A DNA stretch of 64,000 nucleotides from Halorarius litoreus (GTDB lineage: Archaea > Halobacteriota > Halobacteria > Halobacteriales > Haloarculaceae): assembly GCF_024362405.1 (NCBI RefSeq), contig NZ_CP101454.1:2666001-2730000 (forward strand). The letters are read 5' to 3'. The notes beneath the pieces are model-generated. The model had not been told where the DNA came from. It saw only the letters and a list, made by a program, of their open reading frames with translations, and searched no databases. A program made the translations under genes and the position numbers. The stretch's first letter is position 1. Each line of letters begins with the position of its first letter. This document shows, in pieces, positions 26,363-39,865 of the stretch.

Positions 26363-27397
26363 TTACGACCCCGGCCGCTCCAGCACGACGTCTTTCACGT
26401 CACTGACGCCGGCACGCCGGACGACCGCCCTGACGGGCTCGCGCGCGCCGGTGAGGTTGTGCGAGTCGCCGTCGAGCACGAACAGGCACGCGTCTTTCCC
26501 CTCCTCGATGACGCCACAGTTCAGCCCCGCGATGTCCGCACCGTTCACCGTCGCCATCCGCAGCACCTCGTCGGCCGGGAGCTCGGCGTGTTTCGCGGTG
26601 AACTCCATCTCGCGGAACATCGACGGGGAGTTGAGCATGACGTTGTCCGTGCCGAGCGCGAGCGTCGTCACCTCGGACAGGCGCTCGAACGGCGGGAGCC
26701 CGACCTTCGTGACGAGGTTCGATCGTGGACAGCAGACGATGGGGGTTCCCCGGTCTGCAACCCGTTCCAGGTGCATCTCCTCGGGGTGGACCATGTGGAC
26801 GAGGAAGTCCGGGTCGAGGTCGAGCGCGCCGTCGATGTCGTGGGGGTCACGCTCGCCGGCGTGGATGCCGAACAGTTTGCCGGCGTTGCGCGTCGCGTTG
26901 CGCTCGCGGTCGAAGTCCGCGTCCCGCGCCCCGCTCGCACCGTAGCCGTCGCCGGCTTCCATCGCCGCCACGGAGCCCCGGCCGAAGACGACCGGGTCGA
27001 CTGGCACGTCGCTCGCGGCCTCCCGGAGCTGTTCGACGCCCTCGACGCCGCCCTCGCGGAACTCCAGAAAGGCGGCGGTCCCCGACTCCTGCATGAACTG
27101 AATCGAGCGACGCATCGCGCTCACGAGCTCGGTGTGGCTCGCCGCCCTGAGAAGTCGGTGTTTGAGTCCGTCCGGCGGCGCGACGAGTTCGTCGAGCGAG
27201 AGCCCGCCGCCGGCCTCCTTCGCGATGGAGTCGCCGATGTGGGTGTGGGCGTTGACGAACGCCGGGACGACGATGTCCGTCGACTCCGTATCGGTCTCCT
27301 CGACGGCGGTGATGCGGCCGTCCTCGACGACGACGCGGCCCGCTATCGGTTCCATCTCGCGGCCCCTGATGACGGTCCCTTCGAGTGTTCGGCTCAT
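26363..27397 (-). CDS. Amidohydrolase (chlorohydrolase / cytosine-deaminase-like)
   Basis: A 344-residue metal-dependent hydrolase of the amidohydrolase superfamily. An N-terminal beta segment (GTVIRGREMEPIAGRVVVED) leads to the metal site H51-x-H53 in FVNAHTHIGDS. Then come HAGE, a His-rich HMVHPEEMHLERV, and the Asp of LGTDNVMLNSPSMFREMEF. It probably hydrolyses an amide or an aminated ring; the substrate is unknown. The ATG at 27397 overlaps the stop of the upstream HD-domain gene by four bases, so the two are translationally coupled. Confidence 0.88.
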   Translation of the reverse strand: MSRTLEGTVIRGREMEPIAGRVVVEDGRITAVEETDTESTDIVVPAFVNAHTHIGDSIAKEAGGGLSLDELVAPPDGLKHRLLRAASHTELVSAMRRSIQFMQESGTAAFLEFREGGVEGVEQLREAASDVPVDPVVFGRGSVAAMEAGDGYGASGARDADFDRERNATRNAGKLFGIHAGERDPHDIDGALDLDPDFLVHMVHPEEMHLERVADRGTPIVCCPRSNLVTKVGLPPFERLSEVTTLALGTDNVMLNSPSMFREMEFTAKHAELPADEVLRMATVNGADIAGLNCGVIEEGKDACLFVLDGDSHNLTGAREPVRAVVRRAGVSDVKDVVLERPGS

Positions 27398-28620
27398 GCT
27401 CCGTACTCGTCGAGCGTCTGGTGAATGCCTTTTCGAACGTCGACGACGAGCGCGTCGAGGTCGAGCCCGAGGACGGTCTCGGCGGCCCCGCCGACCGCGT
27501 CGGTGGCGCCCTCGGGGGCGTACACGCCGAGTCGCCACTGTTCGTGCTGGGCCTTGCGGAGCGCGCCGACGAGCGTGGACTGCGAGCCCAGCCGTCGCAC
27601 CTCGCCGTTGACGACGACTTGCGTCGTCGACTCGGCCATCGCCGGTCGGCCCGGGATGTCGAGGATGACTTCGTCGGGCGCTACGTCGGCTGCCGCGGCG
27701 ATATCGCGTTCGAACTCGAGGACAGCGTCGTGGTCGGCGTCGATGAGCTCTTCGGGGACGTCCGGCCACTCGGCCCACACCGCGCGCTTGAACAGGTCGC
27801 GCTCGGTGAGCCGGCGAGCGTATTCGCTCGTGGGCTCGTGTGTGCGAAGGGCGACCAGCAGGTCGTGGTCGTCCATCCGGCGGAACTCGGTCGGGGCGAC
27901 CGCCCCGTCGGGACCGACGAGGGCGTCAGTCGCCCGCCGGAGCATCGCCTTCGAGATGCGCGCGACGTGGTGGGAGTAGACGGTGGGGTTCATGAGTGCC
28001 CGCGCGAGCAGGAGCGACTCGGCCGTCTGGACGTTCCCCTCTCCCAACACGAGCTCGCCGACGACGAACCGCAGTTCGCGGACGAGGCGGCCGTGGTCGA
28101 TGGTGCCGTAGGGGACGCCGGTGTGGTGGGCGTCGCGCACGAGGTAGTCCATGCGGTCGACGTCCAGCTCGCCCGAGACCAGCTGCCCGAGTTCACCCTC
28201 GCCGGCGATGAGGTCCGCGACCTTCGCGGGCTCGAGGTCGTGTTTGATGAGGACGCGCTCGACCTCGCCACCTTCGAGGAGGTCGTGGACGTCGTCGTGT
28301 TCCTTCCCGGTGTGGCGTTCGAGGACCTGTTCGGTGTTGTGCGAGAACGGGGTGTGGCCGACGTCGTGGAGGAGCGCGGCGGCTCCCACCCGCTCGGCCT
28401 GTCGCCCCTCGATGCCGAGGTGGTCGAGCGCCTCCGTCGCGAGGTGGTAGACGCCGAGCGAGTGTTCGAACCGGGTGTGGTTCGCGCTCGGATAGACGAG
28501 TTCCGCCGTCCCGAGCTGCTTGATGGCGCGGAGCCGCTGGACGGGCGGCGTGTCCAGCAGCTCCGCCGCGACGCCCTCGACCGAGATGTGGTCGTGGACG
28601 GAGTCCTTGATGGTCGGCAT
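27394..28620 (-). CDS. HD-domain phosphohydrolase (dNTPase-like), copy 1
   Basis: A 408-residue HD-superfamily protein like SAMHD1/YpgQ-type nucleotide phosphohydrolases. The opening MPTIKDSVHDHISVEG is typical. Metal ligands are H53 (RFEHSLGVYHL), H85-D86 (LLHDVGHTPFSH) and the Asp of ELDVDRMDYLVRDAHH. It is likely to hydrolyse (deoxy)nucleotides or a nucleotide signal in the cytoplasm. The end overlaps the amidohydrolase start. A second copy lies at 30161-31312, and 104 bp are identical between them. An upstream in-frame extension to 28905 is rejected because it runs antisense through the lipoprotein gene. Confidence 0.92.
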   Translation of the reverse strand: MPTIKDSVHDHISVEGVAAELLDTPPVQRLRAIKQLGTAELVYPSANHTRFEHSLGVYHLATEALDHLGIEGRQAERVGAAALLHDVGHTPFSHNTEQVLERHTGKEHDDVHDLLEGGEVERVLIKHDLEPAKVADLIAGEGELGQLVSGELDVDRMDYLVRDAHHTGVPYGTIDHGRLVRELRFVVGELVLGEGNVQTAESLLLARALMNPTVYSHHVARISKAMLRRATDALVGPDGAVAPTEFRRMDDHDLLVALRTHEPTSEYARRLTERDLFKRAVWAEWPDVPEELIDADHDAVLEFERDIAAAADVAPDEVILDIPGRPAMAESTTQVVVNGEVRRLGSQSTLVGALRKAQHEQWRLGVYAPEGATDAVGGAAETVLGLDLDALVVDVRKGIHQTLDEYGA

Positions 28621-28676
28621 TGGGGGGCCTTCGGCGGGATGTGGTAAAAACTCCGTGTCCAACCGCCTCGTGTCCC

Positions 28677-29123
28677 TCAGGCGTGGACGACGTCGATGCG
28701 GTAGTGGTCGAACGCGTCGACGTCCGTGTCGAGTTCCGCCGACCGGGTGGCGGTTCGCGTGGTGCCCGACGTGTTCGCCGGCACCTGTTTGTAGACGTCG
28801 TGTAACTGGTCGCCCTCGGCGTCGAAGAAGTAGACGAACAGGCCGATTGGATACGGGGTCGCGTCGCCGACCGGCTGCAGTTCGAGCGTCACCGTGACGA
28901 TCCACGCGGGCGGGTCGTCGCGGCGGTAGGTGTGGTGTGATTCGACCGCGACATCCGTGGTGCGGTGGTTCTCGACGTGGCCCGACGGCGTGCTGGGAGT
29001 CGACGACCTTGTCCGCGATTCCCTCGGCGAGGTCGTCCCCGCCCCGCCGTCGATGCCGGTGAGACAGCCGGCGAGGAGCCCACCGCTGCTCGCTGCGACC
29101 GCGAGGAGTGCTCTGCGGCGCAT
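28677..29123 (-). CDS. Small secreted lipoprotein
   Basis: A 148-residue protein with a signal peptide (MRRRALLAVAASSGG) and lipobox LLAGC, so it is probably anchored to the outer face of the membrane. A short Ser/Thr/Pro-rich linker leads to a beta-rich domain (AWIVTVTLELQPVG, PIGLFVYFFDAEGDQLHDVY). No family recognised. The gene is on the same strand as the HD gene downstream (56 bp apart) and the monooxygenase gene upstream (62 bp apart). The start was chosen at the signal peptide Met. Confidence 0.75.
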   Translation of the reverse strand: MRRRALLAVAASSGGLLAGCLTGIDGGAGTTSPRESRTRSSTPSTPSGHVENHRTTDVAVESHHTYRRDDPPAWIVTVTLELQPVGDATPYPIGLFVYFFDAEGDQLHDVYKQVPANTSGTTRTATRSAELDTDVDAFDHYRIDVVHA

Positions 29124-29185: not shown

Positions 29186-30130
29186 TCACAGCCGGTCGAG
29201 CACCTGGTCGGCGAAGCGCGTCAGCCCGGCCTCGGGGTCGTCGCCGCCCGCGGAGACGAGCACGTGGTCGACGCCCCAGTCGTCGAGTCGTCGGAAGTAG
29301 TCGACGAACCACTCGCTGCCCGCGCGGTAGCCCTGGTGGACGGGTTCGGGGTCGGCCGTGGGGTCGTCGGCGAGGTCGGTGCGGACGACCATCGCGTACG
29401 GCTTCGCGCCTGCGACGTCGCGCCAGTCGTCGAGATACGAGTCGAGCGTCTCGTCGGGGAGGTGGTAGAACAGCCAGCCGTCGCCGTGCTCCCCGAGCCA
29501 GTCGAGCGACTGCCGGGAGTGGCCCGTCGGCAGGAGCGGTACGGTCTCTTCGGTCGGCTTCGGGACGAGGTCGAGGTCGCCCGAGAGTTCGCCCCACTCG
29601 CCGTCGCGCTCGGGGAACTCCTCGCGCCAGACGGCCCGGAGGGTCGCCACCGACTCACGGAACCGCGCACCCCTGTCGTCGCGGTCGACGCCGAACGCCG
29701 CGTACTCCGGGTCGCGGTCGCCGGTCGCGACGCCCATGACGAACCTCCCCTCCGAAAGCCGGTCGAGCGACGCCGCCTCTTTGGCGACGTGTAGCGGATG
29801 ACGAAGGGGAAGAACGACGCTGGCGGTGCCGAGCGCGATGTCGTCGGTGTGCGCCGCGGCGTAGCCGAGCCACGTCCACGGGTCGAACGTCTGCCCGGCG
29901 TCACCGAACCGCGGCCAGTACAGGGGCACGTCCCGCGCCCACAGGGCGTCGAATCCGAGTGATTCGGCGTGCGCCGCCAGTCGCATCTCCTCGGCGGGGT
30001 CCGGGCGTGCCGTGCGCGCGCCGGTGAGCGGGAAGCCGACGCCGACGGTGAGGTCGTCGCCGCCGAACAGCCGCTCGTAGCCCGCGTTCCGGTGGCCGGT
30101 GGTCACGGTCGGAGTCGGGCGGCCGGACAC
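29186..30130 (-). CDS. LLM-class (luciferase-like) oxidoreductase, probably F420- or FMN-dependent
   Basis: A 314-residue TIM-barrel protein of the bacterial luciferase superfamily. The opening LTVGVGFPLTGARTARPD is followed by LGFDALWARDVPL, ALGTASVVLPLRHPLHVAKEAASLDRLSEGRF and GVATGDRDPEYAAFGVDRD, all characteristic. The start is a GTG (VSGRPTPT); the ATG two bases upstream is out of frame. Many archaeal members use coenzyme F420, and cofD for F420 synthesis lies only 1.8 kb to the right, but FMN use is equally possible. The substrate is unknown. Confidence 0.88.
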   Translation of the reverse strand: MSGRPTPTVTTGHRNAGYERLFGGDDLTVGVGFPLTGARTARPDPAEEMRLAAHAESLGFDALWARDVPLYWPRFGDAGQTFDPWTWLGYAAAHTDDIALGTASVVLPLRHPLHVAKEAASLDRLSEGRFVMGVATGDRDPEYAAFGVDRDDRGARFRESVATLRAVWREEFPERDGEWGELSGDLDLVPKPTEETVPLLPTGHSRQSLDWLGEHGDGWLFYHLPDETLDSYLDDWRDVAGAKPYAMVVRTDLADDPTADPEPVHQGYRAGSEWFVDYFRRLDDWGVDHVLVSAGGDDPEAGLTRFADQVLDRL

Positions 30131-30160: not shown

Positions 30161-31312
30161 CTACGGCAGTCCGAGGACGCCGCGTGCGGCCTCGTGGACC
30201 GCGTCGACCTCGTGCTCGGGCGCGTACACGCCCAGTCGCCACTGTGCGCGCCGCGTCGCGCGGAGTGCTCCCACCATCTCGGAGGCCTGTTCGAGCCGCT
30301 GGACGACGCCGTCGACCACCACGCGGGAGCGCGACTCCTTCAGTTCGGGCCGCGAGGGCACGTCCACGAGCACGGCCTCTCGGTCGACACCCGCCGCTTC
30401 GGCGATTTCGCGGGCGGCGGCGCGCTCGTCCTCGCGGTCGAGTTCGGTGACGGCGTCGGGGACGCGGTCGATACCGGCCCACACCGCCCGCTTGTAGAGG
30501 TCGCGGCGTTCGATGCGCCGGCCGAGGTCGGGCACCTCGCGGCGGAGCGCGACGAGCAGGTCGTGGTCGGCCATCCGGCGGAACTCGTCGACGGCGAGGT
30601 CGCCCACCAGCAGGCGCTCGCAGGCGCGTTCGAGCATGGCCCCCGCGATGCGCGAGACGTGGTGGCGGTAGACGATGCCGTCCATGAGCGCCCGCGCGAG
30701 TAGGAGCGACTCGGCGGTGGCGACGTTCCCCTCCGCGAGCACGAGGCGGCCGTCTCTGTATCTGAGTTCGCGGACGAGGCGGCCGTGGTCGATGGTGCCG
30801 TAGGGGACGCCGGTGTGGTGGGCGTCGCGCACGAGGTAGTCCATGCGGTCGACGTCCAGCTCGCCCGATACCAGCTGGCCGAGTTCGCCCTCGCCGCGGA
30901 CGAGTGCGGCCACGCGGTCGGGGTCGAGGTCGTGGCGGTCGAGGACGCCGACGAGGTCCGTCTCGTACAGCAGGTCGCCGAGTTCGTCGTGATCCGTGCC
31001 GGTGTGGCGGCGGATGACCTCTTCGGTCTGGTGGCCGTACGGGCCGTGTCCAACGTCGTGGAGGAGTGCAGCCGCGCGAACGTGCTCGGCTCGCTGGCCC
31101 TCGATACCTAGCGAGTCGAGCGCGTTCGCAGCGAGGTGATAGACGCCCAGCGAGTGCTCGAACCGGGTGTGTGAGGCCGAGGGGTAGACGAGGCGGACGG
31201 TGGAGAGCTGTTTGATGTGACGGAGTCGCTGGAACGCCTCGGTGTCCAGCAGGTCCGCAGCCACGGGATCGAGCGAGATCCAGTCGTGGACGGAGTCCTT
31301 GATGGCGTTCAT
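30161..31312 (-). CDS. HD-domain phosphohydrolase (dNTPase-like), copy 2
   Basis: A 383-residue paralogue of the HD protein at 27394-28620. It opens MNAIKDSVHDWISLDPVA and has the same metal-site motifs: H53 (RFEHSLGVYHL), H85-D86 (LLHDVGHGPYGH) and Asp in ELDVDRMDYLVRDAHH. The family ending YAPE followed by AARGVLGLP is similar but shorter. The paralogues diverge through most of their length, yet share 104 identical bases. The monooxygenase gene lies 30 bp downstream on the same strand, so the two may be cotranscribed. Nucleotide phosphohydrolase activity is inferred from the family. Confidence 0.92.
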   Translation of the reverse strand: MNAIKDSVHDWISLDPVAADLLDTEAFQRLRHIKQLSTVRLVYPSASHTRFEHSLGVYHLAANALDSLGIEGQRAEHVRAAALLHDVGHGPYGHQTEEVIRRHTGTDHDELGDLLYETDLVGVLDRHDLDPDRVAALVRGEGELGQLVSGELDVDRMDYLVRDAHHTGVPYGTIDHGRLVRELRYRDGRLVLAEGNVATAESLLLARALMDGIVYRHHVSRIAGAMLERACERLLVGDLAVDEFRRMADHDLLVALRREVPDLGRRIERRDLYKRAVWAGIDRVPDAVTELDREDERAAAREIAEAAGVDREAVLVDVPSRPELKESRSRVVVDGVVQRLEQASEMVGALRATRRAQWRLGVYAPEHEVDAVHEAARGVLGLP

Positions 31313-31526
31313 GGCCCCGCGTTCGGGTAGGGGTAGCAAGTGGGTTCGGGTTTGACGGGTCGCTCCGGGCCCACGGGCGTCGCGTCGGTAGTCCCATCTT
31401 ACGTGAGTCGTCGCTCCCTTCCGACCGTCGGTAGTCTGCCCGTTCTCTCTCAGGTCACCCATTACAATCGGGTCTCGGGAACTACACGGGAGTGGCTCGT
31501 ATCTGCGTCCAGCATCCGAGCCCCCC

Positions 31527-31796
31527 ATGTCCACCCACCCCTCTGCGACTCCGCCCGCGGTCGATCACGAGACGGTCTCGTACGCGGACGTTCGCGCCGT
31601 GATTTTACCGGAGGGACCGGACCACTACGAGGTGGATCTCGCCGACGAGACCACCACCGCCCATCACGCCGTCGAGCGGGTCGTTCTCAACAACACGGTC
31701 GTGCGGTTCGACGACCCGCTGTGGTTCATCGACGTCAACGTCGACGTGGGACTCCCGCTGTACGACCACGGCGACACCGTCTGGGTCTGGCTCTGA
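31527..31796 (+). CDS. Hypothetical protein, 89 residues
   Basis: A small acidic protein with alternating strand-like segments (YADVRAVILPEGPDHYEVDL, RVVLNNTVVRFDDPLWFIDV, PLYDHGDTVWVWL), suggesting a small beta fold. Haloarchaeal codon and amino-acid use supports translation. It lies divergently from the second HD gene (214-bp gap) and 99 bp before cofD on the same strand. No family recognised and no catalytic motif seen. Confidence 0.6.
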   Translation: MSTHPSATPPAVDHETVSYADVRAVILPEGPDHYEVDLADETTTAHHAVERVVLNNTVVRFDDPLWFIDVNVDVGLPLYDHGDTVWVWL

Positions 31797-31895: not shown

Positions 31896-32888
31896 ATGGT
31901 CACGTTCCTCGCTGGCGGCACGGGGACGCCGAAGCTCCTGCAGGGAGCCGAGGCCGTCTTCCCACCCGCCGACACGCCGGTCGTGGGCAACACCGGTGAC
32001 GACGTCGAACTCGGGGGGCACCTCGTCTGTCCCGACCTCGACACCCAGCTGTTCCTCGACGCCGGCCGCATCGACCGGGAGACGTGGTGGGGTATCGCCG
32101 ACGACTCCCACGAGACACACGACGAACTCCACGCGCTGGCCGAGGGCGCACGGCTCGACACCACGCCCCGCTATCTCGACGACGACGCACAGACCTCGGG
32201 CCGCGACATCGCCCGGTGGCGGCGGTTCTCGGGCATCGGCGAGTTCATGCTCATCGGCGACCGCGACCGGGCCATCCACCTCACCCGGACCGGGCTCATC
32301 GACGAGGGGTACTCGCTGACGGAGGCGACCGCGACGCTCTGTCGCGCGCTCGACGTCGAGCGCGACCTCCTCCCGATGACCGACGACCCCGTGGCGAGCC
32401 TCATCCACACCCCGAGCGGCGTGATGCATTTCCAGGAGTGGTGGGTCCATCGGAACGGCAACCCCCCCGTCGAGAAGGTCGAGTTCCGCGGGTCGACCGA
32501 GGCCACCCCCACCGAGGCAGTTCTCGACGCCCTCACCGACCCCGTCGTCATCGGGCCGTCGAACCCCATCACCAGCCTCGGGCCGATGCTCGGCATGGAT
32601 GCCTTCCGGGAGACGCTGTCGCTGACACCCGTCGTCGTGGTCTCGCCGTTCGTCGAGGACCAGGTGTTCTCGGGCCCCGCGGCGACTCTGATGGAGGCCG
32701 TCGGCTACGAGCCCTCCACGGCGGGTGTGGCTAACGCCTACCCGTTCGCGGACGCGTTCGTGCTCGACATCGAGGACGGCACCGAGCTCGACTGCCCGGT
32801 CTTCCGGACCGACACGACGCTCGACACACCTGAGGACAGCGCCCGCGTGGCGAGCGCCGTCGACGAGGCGCTCGCGGAGGTCGTGTGA
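31896..32888 (+). CDS. cofD: 2-phospho-L-lactate transferase (coenzyme F420 synthesis)
   Basis: A 330-residue CofD, which joins the phospholactate moiety to the deazaflavin Fo to give F420-0. The N-terminal [16 protein letters not shown] is the family signature, followed by [12 protein letters not shown] and the CPDLDT segment. [16 protein letters not shown] is also diagnostic. It is the first of four genes with overlapping ends (cofD, DUS-like, CitG-like, DUF447), suggesting one message and a shared pathway. No other F420 gene is in the window. Confidence 0.95.
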
Positions 32889-33619
32889 TGTTCGAGCCAC
32901 GGCTCGCGCTCGCGTCGCTGTCGGGCGAGTCGGACGCCGACTGGGCGCTCGCGGCCGAGGAGTGGGCGGGTGCGGCGTTCCTCGGGGGCATCGCGCTCGA
33001 CGAGCCCACTCGCGAGGCGGCCCACGCGCTCGTCGCCCGCGACCGAACCGAGTTCCTCCCCGACGACCCCGTGGCGTTCGTGGACCGCGAACTCGCGGTA
33101 CTGGACGACAGTTCCCTCCGCGCAGGTATCAACGTCCGCACGACGACGGTCGCTCCGCTCCGCGAGGTCGCACGGGTCTGTGCCGACCACGACGCCATCC
33201 TCGAGGTGAACGCCCACTGCCGGCAGGCCGAGATGTGCGACGCTGGGGCCGGCCAGACGCTCCTGCGTGACGGGGACAGGCTCTGCGAGTACGCCCGTGC
33301 CGCCAGCGAGGCGGGCGCAGACGTGAGTGTGAAAGTCCGAACCGAAGTGACGGGCGTCGATCTGCCCGCGCTCGCCGCGCGGCTCGACGCTGCGGGCGCC
33401 GACTGTCTCCACGTCGACGCGATGGACTCCGAACACGTCGTCGCCGAGGTTCGCGAGCGGTTCGACGGCTGGCTCGTCGCGAACAACGGCGTCCGAGACC
33501 GCGCGACGGTCCGTGAGTATCTCGATTTCGGCGCGGACGCGGTCTCCGTGGGCCGGCCCTCCGACGACCCGCGGGTCCTGCAGCGCGTCCGGGCGGCACT
33601 CGAGGAGGCGGTGGCGTGA
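32888..33619 (+). CDS. DUS-like TIM-barrel protein
   Basis: A 243-residue TIM barrel related to tRNA-dihydrouridine synthases. Where DUS enzymes have N-x-G-C-P, this protein has the altered N-A-H-C-R-Q around C111 (EVNAHCRQAEMCDAGAGQTLL). The later strand ADCLHVDAMDS and the FMN-phosphate-like NNGVRDRATVREYLDFGADAVSVGR fit a flavin-binding barrel. It is shorter than true DUS enzymes and lacks their C-terminal tRNA-binding helical domain, so a small-molecule substrate is likelier. Its ATG overlaps the cofD stop. Confidence 0.82.
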   Translation: MFEPRLALASLSGESDADWALAAEEWAGAAFLGGIALDEPTREAAHALVARDRTEFLPDDPVAFVDRELAVLDDSSLRAGINVRTTTVAPLREVARVCADHDAILEVNAHCRQAEMCDAGAGQTLLRDGDRLCEYARAASEAGADVSVKVRTEVTGVDLPALAARLDAAGADCLHVDAMDSEHVVAEVRERFDGWLVANNGVRDRATVREYLDFGADAVSVGRPSDDPRVLQRVRAALEEAVA

Positions 33620-34446
33620 GGACGCCCGCCGAGAACGCCCAGCTCGCGCTGCTGCTGGAAGTCGCCGGGACCCCCAAGCCCGGCAACGTCGACCGGCACC
33701 GCGACCACGGCGACTTGCGGTTCGAGCACTTCCTCGCGGGGGCGGTCGGCTCGCTCGACGGGCTGGAACTGGCCGCGGGCGCTGGGCCGATGGGGGAAGC
33801 GTTCGAGACGGCCGTCGAGGGGATGGCCGACCAGCGCGGCGGCAACACGCAGTTCGGGTGCCTGCTGTTGCTCGTCCCGCTGGTGCGGGCGGCCGCGTCG
33901 GACGCGCTGACCCCCGACGGGCTCCGACTGATCTGTGCCAACTCGACGGTCGCGGACGCCGCGGGGTTCTACCGCGCGTTCGAGCACGTCGACGTGGCGG
34001 TCGCAGAGCCACCCGCGGAGATGGAAGACCTCGACGTGCGCCGTGGGGCCGATGCGGTGCCGACGCTCGAAGCCCGGGGGATCACCCTCCACGATGTGAT
34101 GGCCCGGTCCGAGGGTGACGGCAACGCCGCAGAGTGGGTCTCGGGGTTCCCGCGGGTGTTCCGCGAAGCCGAGGCCATCCTCGGCGACGATGGACCGGCG
34201 ACGGAGCGTGGAGCGCGGGCGTTTCTTCGCTTGCTAGCCGAACAGGAGGACGGCTTCGTGCGGGCCACCTCGGGGCCGGCGGCCGCGCGCGAGGCTCGCG
34301 AGCGGGCACAGGCCTGTCTCGACGGGGAGGAGGACCCCGAAGCGCTCGCCGAGGAGTTCGTCGAGCGCGGCATCAATCCGGGAACGACCGCGGACCTGAC
34401 GTGTGGCGCGCTGTTCGTCGCGCTCGAACGGGGGCTTCCTGTATGA
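33616..34446 (+). CDS. CitG-like triphosphoribosyl-dephospho-CoA synthase family protein
   Basis: A 276-residue helical protein of the CitG/MdcB family, beginning at a GTG that overlaps the previous stop. Signature motifs are TPKPGNVDRHRDHGDLRFEHF near the N-terminus and GGNTQFGCLLLLVPLV in the middle, with GINPGTTADLTCGALFV at the end. CitG proper makes the citrate lyase prosthetic group, but no citrate lyase gene is here. A related pterin- or cofactor-linked reaction in the cofD operon is more likely. The fold suggests ATP binding; the exact reaction is unknown. Confidence 0.83.
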   Translation: MRTPAENAQLALLLEVAGTPKPGNVDRHRDHGDLRFEHFLAGAVGSLDGLELAAGAGPMGEAFETAVEGMADQRGGNTQFGCLLLLVPLVRAAASDALTPDGLRLICANSTVADAAGFYRAFEHVDVAVAEPPAEMEDLDVRRGADAVPTLEARGITLHDVMARSEGDGNAAEWVSGFPRVFREAEAILGDDGPATERGARAFLRLLAEQEDGFVRATSGPAAAREARERAQACLDGEEDPEALAEEFVERGINPGTTADLTCGALFVALERGLPV

Positions 34447-35024
34447 GTTGGCCGGCCGAGTGGGACGGCGTCGCAGAGAGCGTCGTGACGACCCTGGGGC
34501 CGAACGACCGGTGGAACGTGGCGGCGCTCGGGTTGCGAGCCCCGGAGGAGCCCGGCGAGCCAGTTACGGCGCGGACGTGGGGCCGCACCCGGACGTGGCG
34601 CAACTTCGGCGAGCGCGGGTCGGGGTACGTCCAGTTCACCCGCAATCCGGTCGACTTCGTGGAGGCCGCGTGTTCGGTCCGTGAGGAGTCCGAGCCAGTA
34701 CTCGATTCGGCCGACGCGTGGGTCGACGTCTCGGCCGAGGAACGCGACTCGGGCGAGGAGGGCGGCACGCCGTGGACCGACTGGGCGCTCTACGCCGAGA
34801 ACGCGGTCGTCGAGCGCGAGGTCGTCCCCGTGGTCTCTCGCGGGCACGCCGCAGTCGTGGAAGCCACGGTCGCCGCCTCGCGGCTCGACGTGCCGGGGTA
34901 CGACACCGAGACGCTCCGCGAGCGCATCCGCTACTTCGCTGCGGTGGTCGAGACCGCCGGTGGCGAACGCGAGCGGGCGGCGTGGGAGCGCTTCGACGCG
35001 CTCACGGACTGGCGCGGGGACTGA
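34443..35024 (+). CDS. DUF447 (FMN-binding split-barrel-like) protein
   Basis: A 193-residue protein of the archaeal DUF447 family, with a flavin-reductase-like beta barrel. It opens [25 protein letters not shown], followed by [23 protein letters not shown] and [22 protein letters not shown]. The ATG overlaps the CitG-like stop, closing the four-gene operon. Relatives sit beside tetrahydromethanopterin genes in methanogens and methylotrophs, which hints at a pterin-linked role. That association is recalled from family knowledge, not shown here. Confidence 0.85.
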
Positions 35025-35089: not shown

Positions 35090-35278
35090 ATGGCTATCAA
35101 GCCGGCCTACGTCAAGAAGATCGCGCGAACCCTCATGGAGCGGTACGACGAAGCGTTCAGCACGGACTTCGAACACAACAAGGACGTCGTCTCCGAACTC
35201 ACCAACGTCGAATCGAAGGGCGTCCGCAACCGTATCGCGGGCTACATCACCCACAAGAAGCGCCGCCCGGTCGCGTAA
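35090..35278 (+). CDS. rps17e: Ribosomal protein S17e
   Basis: A 62-residue archaeal S17e of the small ribosomal subunit. [20 protein letters not shown] and [31 protein letters not shown]-like segments match the family throughout, with the basic tail KKRRPVA. Length is normal. A TATA-like CTTTTTAGG at about 35056-35064 lies 30 bases before the ATG, so it has its own promoter just after the DUF447 gene. Confidence 0.96.
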
Positions 35279-38761: not shown

Positions 38762-38833
38762 CGCGCAGGAGCGCGACCGGCGAACCGTGCCGTGGGCGAC
38801 ACCGTTTTCCACTATCCTCACGCAGTCCCGACA

Positions 38834-39865
38834 ATGGTACGAGTCGGCATCCTCGGCGCGACCGGTGCGGTCGGGCAGCGTCTCATTCAACTGCTGGAAC
38901 CGCACGACGACTTCGAAATCGCAGCACTCACCGCCTCCGAGTCCTCCGCGGGCAAGTCCTATCGCGAGGCCGCGAAGTGGCGCGTCGACAGCCCCATCCC
39001 CGAGTCGGTCGCCGGGATGGACGTCGTCGCGACGGATCCCGACGCCGTCGGCTCGGATGTCGACCTCATCTTCTCGTCGCTCCCGTCCTCCGTGGGCGAA
39101 GCGGTCGAACCCGCGTTCGTCGAGGCCGGCTACGTCGTCTCCTCGAACTCCTCGAACAGCCGGATGGCTGCGGACGTGCCGCTCGTCATCCCCGAGGTGA
39201 ACGCCGACCACCTCGACCTCATCGAGGTCCAGCGCGACGAGCGCGGCTGGGACGGCGCCCTCGTGAAGAACCCGAACTGCTCGACCATCACGTTCGTCCC
39301 GACGCTCGCGGCGCTCGTCGACTGGGACATCGAGACGGTCCACGTCGCCACCCTGCAGGCCGTCTCCGGTGCGGGCTACGACGGCGTCACGTCGATGGAG
39401 ATCATCGACAACGCCATCCCGCACATCGGCGGCGAGGCCGAGAAACTGGAGACCGAGTCCCGCAAGCTCCTCGGCGGCTTCGACGGTGCCGAGGTCGACC
39501 TCAACTCGATGGCCGTCTCCGCCTCCTGTAATCGGATTCCGACCCTGGATGGACATCTGGAGAACGTCTGGGTCGAGACCGCCGAAGAGCTCACCCCCGA
39601 GGAGGCGGCCGACGCGATGGCCGGCTACCCGAGCCTCGACCTCCCCTCCTCGCCCGACCCCCTCATCCACGTCTTCGACGAACCCGACCGACCGCAGCCC
39701 CGGCTCGACCGAACTCTCGGGAACGGGATGGCGGTCGCTGCCGGCGGCATCGAGACCACACCCTCCGGACTCCAGTACAACTGTCTCTCGCACAACACGA
39801 TTCGGGGCGCAGCGGGCGCGAGCGTCCTGAACGGTGAACTGCTGCTCGAACGCGGCTACGTCTGA
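38834..39865 (+). CDS. asd: Aspartate-semialdehyde dehydrogenase
   Basis: A 343-residue enzyme of lysine/threonine/methionine biosynthesis that reduces aspartyl phosphate to the semialdehyde with NADPH. The Rossmann motif VGILGATGAVGQRLIQLL is at the N-terminus and the catalytic cysteine is C149 in KNPNCSTITF. The active-site His region is PHIGGEAEKLETE, and SCNRIPTLDGH is also typical. It is an archaeal-type protein. The gene overlaps the convergent membrane protein gene by 10 bp. Confidence 0.96.
   Translation: MVRVGILGATGAVGQRLIQLLEPHDDFEIAALTASESSAGKSYREAAKWRVDSPIPESVAGMDVVATDPDAVGSDVDLIFSSLPSSVGEAVEPAFVEAGYVVSSNSSNSRMAADVPLVIPEVNADHLDLIEVQRDERGWDGALVKNPNCSTITFVPTLAALVDWDIETVHVATLQAVSGAGYDGVTSMEIIDNAIPHIGGEAEKLETESRKLLGGFDGAEVDLNSMAVSASCNRIPTLDGHLENVWVETAEELTPEEAADAMAGYPSLDLPSSPDPLIHVFDEPDRPQPRLDRTLGNGMAVAAGGIETTPSGLQYNCLSHNTIRGAAGASVLNGELLLERGYV

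Follow-up and report, generated by a model that had tools for sequence, protein, structure and literature searches.

Two gene modules in a haloarchaeal cofD operon and a putative methanopterin-type carrier for methionine synthesis

In this work, we describe a four-gene operon of Halorarius litoreus that joins a gene of F420 synthesis to genes for a dihydrouridine synthase (DUS)-like, a CitG-like and a DUF447 protein. It lies in a stretch of 64,000 nucleotides (the window; positions 2,666,001 to 2,730,000 of contig NZ_CP101454.1) whose DNA is haloarchaeal and whose genes were scored against family profiles (Pfam, TIGRFAM and NF equivalogs). The analysis covered family identities and conserved residues, joint losses and duplications of genes, operon structures, and contexts in methanogens and bacteria; together these point to two distinct modules, one of which is probably devoted to a methanopterin-type carrier for methionine synthesis.

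Four overlapping genes, two modules

The operon runs along the forward strand. It opens with cofD (31896-32888, +), which encodes the 2-phospho-L-lactate/enolpyruvyl transferase of F420 synthesis (TIGR01819 equivalog, 357 bits against a cut-off of 257; PF01933), followed by the gene for the DUS-like protein (32888-33619, +), a (beta/alpha)8 barrel of flavin mononucleotide (FMN) type with 243 residues and the motif NAHCRQ (PF01207, 28 bits; TIGR00736, 112 bits against a cut-off of 219). The third gene, with a GTG start, encodes a CitG-like protein of the archaeal type (33616-34446, +; PF01874, 203 bits), and the fourth an FMN split-barrel protein of the DUF447 family (34443-35024, +; PF04289, 76 bits, and PF20766, 65 bits). 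The genes overlap end to start, through TGATG between cofD and the DUS-like gene, GTGA between the DUS-like and CitG-like genes, and ATGA between the CitG-like gene and duf447. Coordinates, junctions and family scores all bear out the overlapping operon described in an initial annotation, as does the NAHCRQ motif, which occupies residues 108-113.

Conservation was assessed in 116 haloarchaeal genomes sampled across the order, a single order being covered. The full arrangement cofD-dus-citG-duf447 is found in 93 of them, far beyond chance, and at 72 of 80 named haloarchaeal cofD loci all four genes lie within the fetched stretch. The initial annotation had considered that the genes might be chance neighbours within one genus; the cluster is in fact order-wide, and citG-duf447 is phylum-wide: of 114 other Halobacteriota genomes, 101 have the two genes adjacent in this order, most exceptions being fragmented assemblies. 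Within the haloarchaea, cofD and dus adjoin in 112 of 113 genomes, and so do citG and duf447 (112/113, the exception, G212, having frame-split genes), whereas dus and citG adjoin in no more than 95 of 110, and the two pairs stand far apart in about 12 of the 116. Since adjacency within each pair is almost complete while the pairs are separable, the operon consists of two modules, cofD with the DUS-like gene and the CitG-like gene with duf447, and not of one pathway. Profiling the four families for co-occurrence gives the same division, with CitG-like and DUF447 proteins co-varying and the cofD/dus pair adjacent, but the four not forming one unit. Three Halobellus loci (L171, L179 and L180) carry cofD-dus without citG-duf447 nearby.

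Loss and duplication together with methionine genes

DUF447, the CitG-like protein and a homolog of ribofuranosylaminobenzene 5'-phosphate (RFAP) synthase (TIGR00144; encoded in H. litoreus outside the window, at C1:2545816-2546766) each occur in 113 of the 116 genomes, and the same three genomes, G008, G049 and G104, lack all of them (Fisher P = 4e-6 per pair of families, uncorrected for relatedness). The homolog of Mer, the F420-dependent methylene-tetrahydromethanopterin reductase, is missing from the same three, with zero luciferase-like matches in G008 and G049 and distant paralogs only (1e-38) in G104; every other genome has a match at E < 1e-80 save G159, where the match covers residues 142-320 only. 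The three are also without a normal split MetE methionine synthase. No methionine synthase (PF01717) was found in G104, and G008 and G049, which represent one genus, each have one divergent stand-alone MetE catalytic protein (47-49% identity; L087:6373-7389 and L088:5652-6668), with no MetE N-component, the pterin-binding partner, within 12-13 kb around it. G104 is Halobacterium salinarum (60-mers identical to NZ_VRYN01000007.1), a known methionine auxotroph for which methionine is essential (PMC2674319).

As controls, CofD and Mch (each 116/116) and the DUS-like protein are kept in all three genomes, whose cofD locus reads dus, then S17e and asd, with citG-duf447 absent. Reciprocally, three further genomes (G017, G206 and G149) lack the DUS-like gene but retain CitG and DUF447, and cofD is there directly followed by citG; these reciprocal losses speak strongly against one four-gene pathway. 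The same arrangement, with the DUS-like gene missing and CofD kept, was seen at a Halapricum hydrolyticum locus (L163). Genome reduction is an unlikely cause of the co-loss, as the small genomes G200 (2.2 Mb), G216 (2.3 Mb), G064 (2.5 Mb) and G116 (1.9 Mb) keep the set.

The same genes are also duplicated together. G221 carries two mer-citG-duf447-rfaps operons (rfaps denoting the RFAP synthase homolog; L073:5813-11394 and L074:3120-8746), each beside both split MetE genes, which are arranged as a divergent metE(N)-metE(C) in L073, L074 likewise holding both components; mer-citG-duf447-rfaps and split metE there make up a compact island for the methyl branch of methionine synthesis. Likewise, on a Halobellus limi plasmid (NZ_CP031312.1; L203:7167-12803), npdG, for F420:NADPH reductase, stands with a divergent mer-duf447-rfaps-metE(N)-metE(C) cassette, and in G017 a cofE-mer pair is found close to rfaps. 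The initial annotation had proposed a single deazaflavin- or pterin-linked step for all four genes of the operon. Its two links survive on separate halves, the pterin link for the CitG-like and DUF447 proteins and the deazaflavin link for cofD and the DUS-like gene; a joint function is not supported, as losses and duplications of the CitG-like gene and duf447 go with those of RFAP synthase, Mer and split MetE, and cofD and the DUS-like gene are kept when these are lost.

A proposed methanopterin-type carrier for methionine

To make a methanopterin-type side chain, a cell needs three enzymes beyond those of folate synthesis: RFAP synthase, a reductase converting the ribofuranose ring into open ribitol, and a transferase that attaches the second ribose in alpha linkage. 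The three members of the module, related to RFAP synthase, to FMN split-barrel proteins and to CitG, match exactly those needs. Judging from the sequences, haloarchaea probably make a methyl carrier of the tetrahydromethanopterin (H4MPT) type, on which Mer and split MetE would draw for methionine. What is made, in which order, and which enzyme catalyses which reaction we infer as follows. The CitG-like protein, DUF447 and the RFAP synthase homolog would build the aryl-ribitol/ribosyl side chain of the pterin, with the RFAP synthase homolog joining p-aminobenzoate, or a relative of it, and phosphoribosyl pyrophosphate (PRPP), DUF447 reducing and opening the ribofuranose with FMN, and the CitG-like enzyme, as a ribosyl or phosphoribosyl transferase, transferring the second ribose, in alpha linkage, from either ATP or PRPP. 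Mer and split MetE would use the resulting carrier for methionine. Purines and thymidylate would continue to depend on folate, in keeping with the retention of Mch by the genomes that lost the module.

CitG enzymes form alpha-ribosyl links by displacing adenine from ATP, and this reaction of the PF01874 family is a sensible model for attachment of the second ribose of H4MPT. The haloarchaeal protein differs from the characterized types in scoring far under both equivalog cut-offs (MdcB, 34 bits against 282; CitG, 26 bits against 272), which rules out identity with the CitG of citrate lyase; the motifs PxPGNxDR, GNTxFG and NPGxxAD are invariant in the alignment and common to haloarchaea and methanogens. 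DUF447 is predicted to adopt an FMN split-barrel fold containing both PF04289 and PF20766 (pLDDT 94.2), and its best PDB matches (2iml, 2nr4 and 2ptf) have titles naming riboflavin 5'-phosphate or FMN. It shares family and fold with two of these FMN structures, MM1853 of Methanosarcina mazei (2nr4) and MTH_863 (2ptf), but is only 21-31% identical to methanogen DUF447 proteins in the alignment. The RFAP synthase homolog exceeds the TIGR00144 cut-off (145 versus 113.5 bits), and in the alignment haloarchaeal members keep an HVGLGSGTQ-type loop and the Arg equivalent to R26 of the Methanothermobacter thermautotrophicus enzyme, at the p-aminobenzoate site. The Mer of H. litoreus, encoded outside the window, is an ortholog above NF002619 (446 versus 276 bits) that retains Glu6 and the equivalents of Asp96 and Phe233, catalytic Glu6 and the other two residues being known from jMer (PMC11094777; structures 8qpl and 8qpm); it departs from jMer in Gln178 to Glu and Val8 to Thr, and scores under TIGR03555 (282 versus 349 bits).

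Outside the haloarchaea, the same families stand among methanopterin genes. At two Methanosarcina-like loci (L096 and L105), duf447 is followed by a dihydromethanopterin reductase gene (TIGR02700; 411 and 325 bits against a cut-off of 251). Directly upstream of citG, these loci encode a methanogenesis-marker-9 protein (TIGR03277 with TIGR00736), a larger DUS-like relative. Moreover, a cluster of about 14 kb for H4MPT and methylofuran on a Cupriavidus oxalaticus plasmid encodes RFAP synthase, ATP-grasp proteins, Mch, a CitG-like protein, an Afp-like flavoprotein, a protein related to dihydropteroate synthase (DHPS), DUF447 and MfnB-, MfnE- and MfnF-like proteins. There the Mch, CitG, DUF447, ATP-grasp and hydantoinase/MfnF-type labels come from hidden Markov models (HMMs) and that of RFAP synthase from a tblastn/GHMP match, whereas those of the Afp-, DHPS-, MfnB- and MfnE-like proteins are a reading of the translations only. 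Among 14 named control genomes, DUF447 and RFAP synthase occur in exactly Methanocaldococcus jannaschii, Haloferax volcanii, Sulfolobus acidocaldarius and Methanosarcina acetivorans, and PF01874 in those four and Escherichia coli. H4MPT biosynthesis in methanogens and in bacteria with archaeal-like clusters resembles the haloarchaeal module in the co-occurrence of the RFAP synthase family, CitG-like protein and DUF447 and in the adjacency of citG and duf447, but the haloarchaeal module belongs to organisms that use folate and are not methanogens, and it is linked to genes for methionine. Within the collection of papers searched, we found none tying DUF447 to methanopterin, or triphosphoribosyl-dephospho-CoA synthase to tetrahydromethanopterin.

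Several observations weigh against a haloarchaeal carrier of this type. Haloarchaea have been described, with reference to older measurements, as using folate and lacking methanopterin (PMC8305020, PMC4500146), and HVO_1937 (Mer) as acting on folate and HVO_2628 (the RFAP synthase homolog) as not making RFAP (PMC8305020, PMC4500146). The RFAP synthase homolog falls under the NF040726 equivalog cut-off (162 versus 328 bits), and the aligned haloarchaeal sequences have N in place of D19, which matters in the M. thermautotrophicus enzyme, the D19N variant of that enzyme being partly active (PMC6787355). S. acidocaldarius has RFAP synthase, CitG and DUF447, yet as a control genome gave no match to Mer or Mch. 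The absences in three genomes probably trace back to no more than two losses, which fell within a single family, and these genomes keep Mch; and the 18.5 kb that hold the Halobellus limi plasmid cassette contain no citG. Because Mch is present in every genome, it is independent of the proposed carrier, and the carrier as a one-carbon substrate of Mch is ruled out.

The published view follows from the folate statements in the two papers first cited above: tetrahydrofolate would be the only carrier, Mer a methylene-tetrahydrofolate reductase and the RFAP synthase homolog otherwise employed, with CitG and DUF447, by extension, unrelated or relic. Retention of Mch where the module is gone agrees with it, as does the fact that three genomes live without the module, but relics would not persist in 113 of 116 genomes, nor would they vanish along with Mer and split MetE or occur twice as a mer operon beside metE. 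We regard this view as quite unlikely, and the genomic evidence speaks against the reported lack of methanopterin for those 113 genomes. Slightly less probable still is that the RFAP synthase homolog, CitG-like protein and DUF447 make an RFA-derived compound for methionine synthesis other than a pterin one-carbon carrier, such as a further cofactor for Mer or MetE. The co-loss data fit this equally well, no DHPS-type enzyme coupling pterin to the aryl side chain having been shown to co-vary with the module, although no search in haloarchaea was aimed at one; against it, the same families sit in the methanopterin clusters of methanogens and a bacterium, and both Mer and the N-domain of MetE work on pterins. 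The single deazaflavin-pterin cofactor step for all four genes is highly improbable, for although the full overlapping order is widely kept and methanogens, too, have a DUS-like gene, of the marker 9 type, ahead of citG, the pairs separate in some genomes and each can be lost, wholly or in part, while the other stays.

The DUS-like protein and the F420 module

Besides the methanopterin-type carrier, the operon raises the question of the DUS-like protein, which with cofD would constitute an F420 module. Its NAHCRQ replaces the N-x-G-C-P motif of DUS, which is absent. The underlying A-H-C-x-Q is invariant in 13 haloarchaeal and methanogen DUS-like relatives and is therefore a family hallmark rather than a sign of decay. 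The structure prediction (pLDDT 95.6) supports an FMN-type barrel, the initial annotation having described a TIM barrel, with DusC, DusB and DHODB as the best PDB folds; C111, K149, H175, N200 and R223 are invariant and align with the catalytic Cys and FMN-contact residues of DusC. The 243-residue protein comprises the barrel only, with neither a C-terminal helical tRNA-binding domain nor a methanogenesis-marker-9 domain. It shares the barrel and an NAHC(R/K)Q-type motif with marker 9 (TIGR03277 with TIGR00736), whose gene is the one upstream of citG in methanogens, but lacks the Cys-rich C-terminal domain of marker 9 and is encoded after cofD. The haloarchaeal protein (32888-33619) corresponds to the barrel half of the marker 9 protein at L096:9207-10346.

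Archaeal CofC uses phosphoenolpyruvate, so that CofD would give dehydro-F420-0, for which an unidentified archaeal reductase, 'CofX', has been postulated (PMC6450877). Because an FMN-type ene-reductase barrel is encoded by a gene that overlaps cofD and is almost always adjacent to it, the DUS-like protein is a natural candidate for this enzyme and may reduce dehydro-F420-0, an assignment that we offer tentatively. The situation recalls the C-terminal domain of FbiB in that a gene for an FMN-type ene-reductase adjoins cofD, whose product would be dehydro-F420-0, but the DUS-like protein is a TIM barrel (DUS/DHOD type) and not a nitroreductase fold. Against the assignment, three CofD-bearing genomes have no DUS-like gene, and the methanogen relative sits by citG, not cofD; the genomes without the gene may rely on some other reductase or differ in the tail of their F420. 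Alternatively, and independently of the pterin question, the protein could be a tRNA dihydrouridine synthase unrelated to F420, as its DUS fold and aligned catalytic Cys and FMN residues would allow; the missing tRNA-binding domain, the altered motif and the adjacency to cofD make this unlikely.

Taken jointly, haloarchaea would possess two one-carbon carriers. Folate would supply purines and thymidylate, and a methanopterin-type pterin, the product of RFAP synthase, DUF447 and the CitG-like protein, would be dedicated to the F420-dependent methyl branch leading to methionine, with the DUS-like protein as the missing archaeal dehydro-F420-0 reductase; that all parts of this picture hold at once is rather doubtful. 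If true, the standing statement that halophilic archaea have no methanopterin and a Mer acting on folate would be wrong for nearly all of them, and two orphan families would be assigned steps of H4MPT biosynthesis, open to testing in an aerobe amenable to genetics rather than in a methanogen. The archaeal dehydro-F420-0 reductase postulated in PMC6450877 would, moreover, have a concrete candidate.

Downstream of the cluster, S17e (35090-35278) and asd (38792-39865), the latter for aspartate-semialdehyde dehydrogenase, upstream of methionine, recur in several genomes, including those without citG-duf447. On its other side, tandem genes for HD-domain proteins (HD_assoc_2; 27394-28905, -, and 30161-31534, -) flank a luciferase-like (LLM) gene (29186-30130), and the N-terminal sequence encoded at L071:8077-9369, beside cofD in G008 and G049, resembles these HD-domain proteins, a likeness by sequence and not by HMM.

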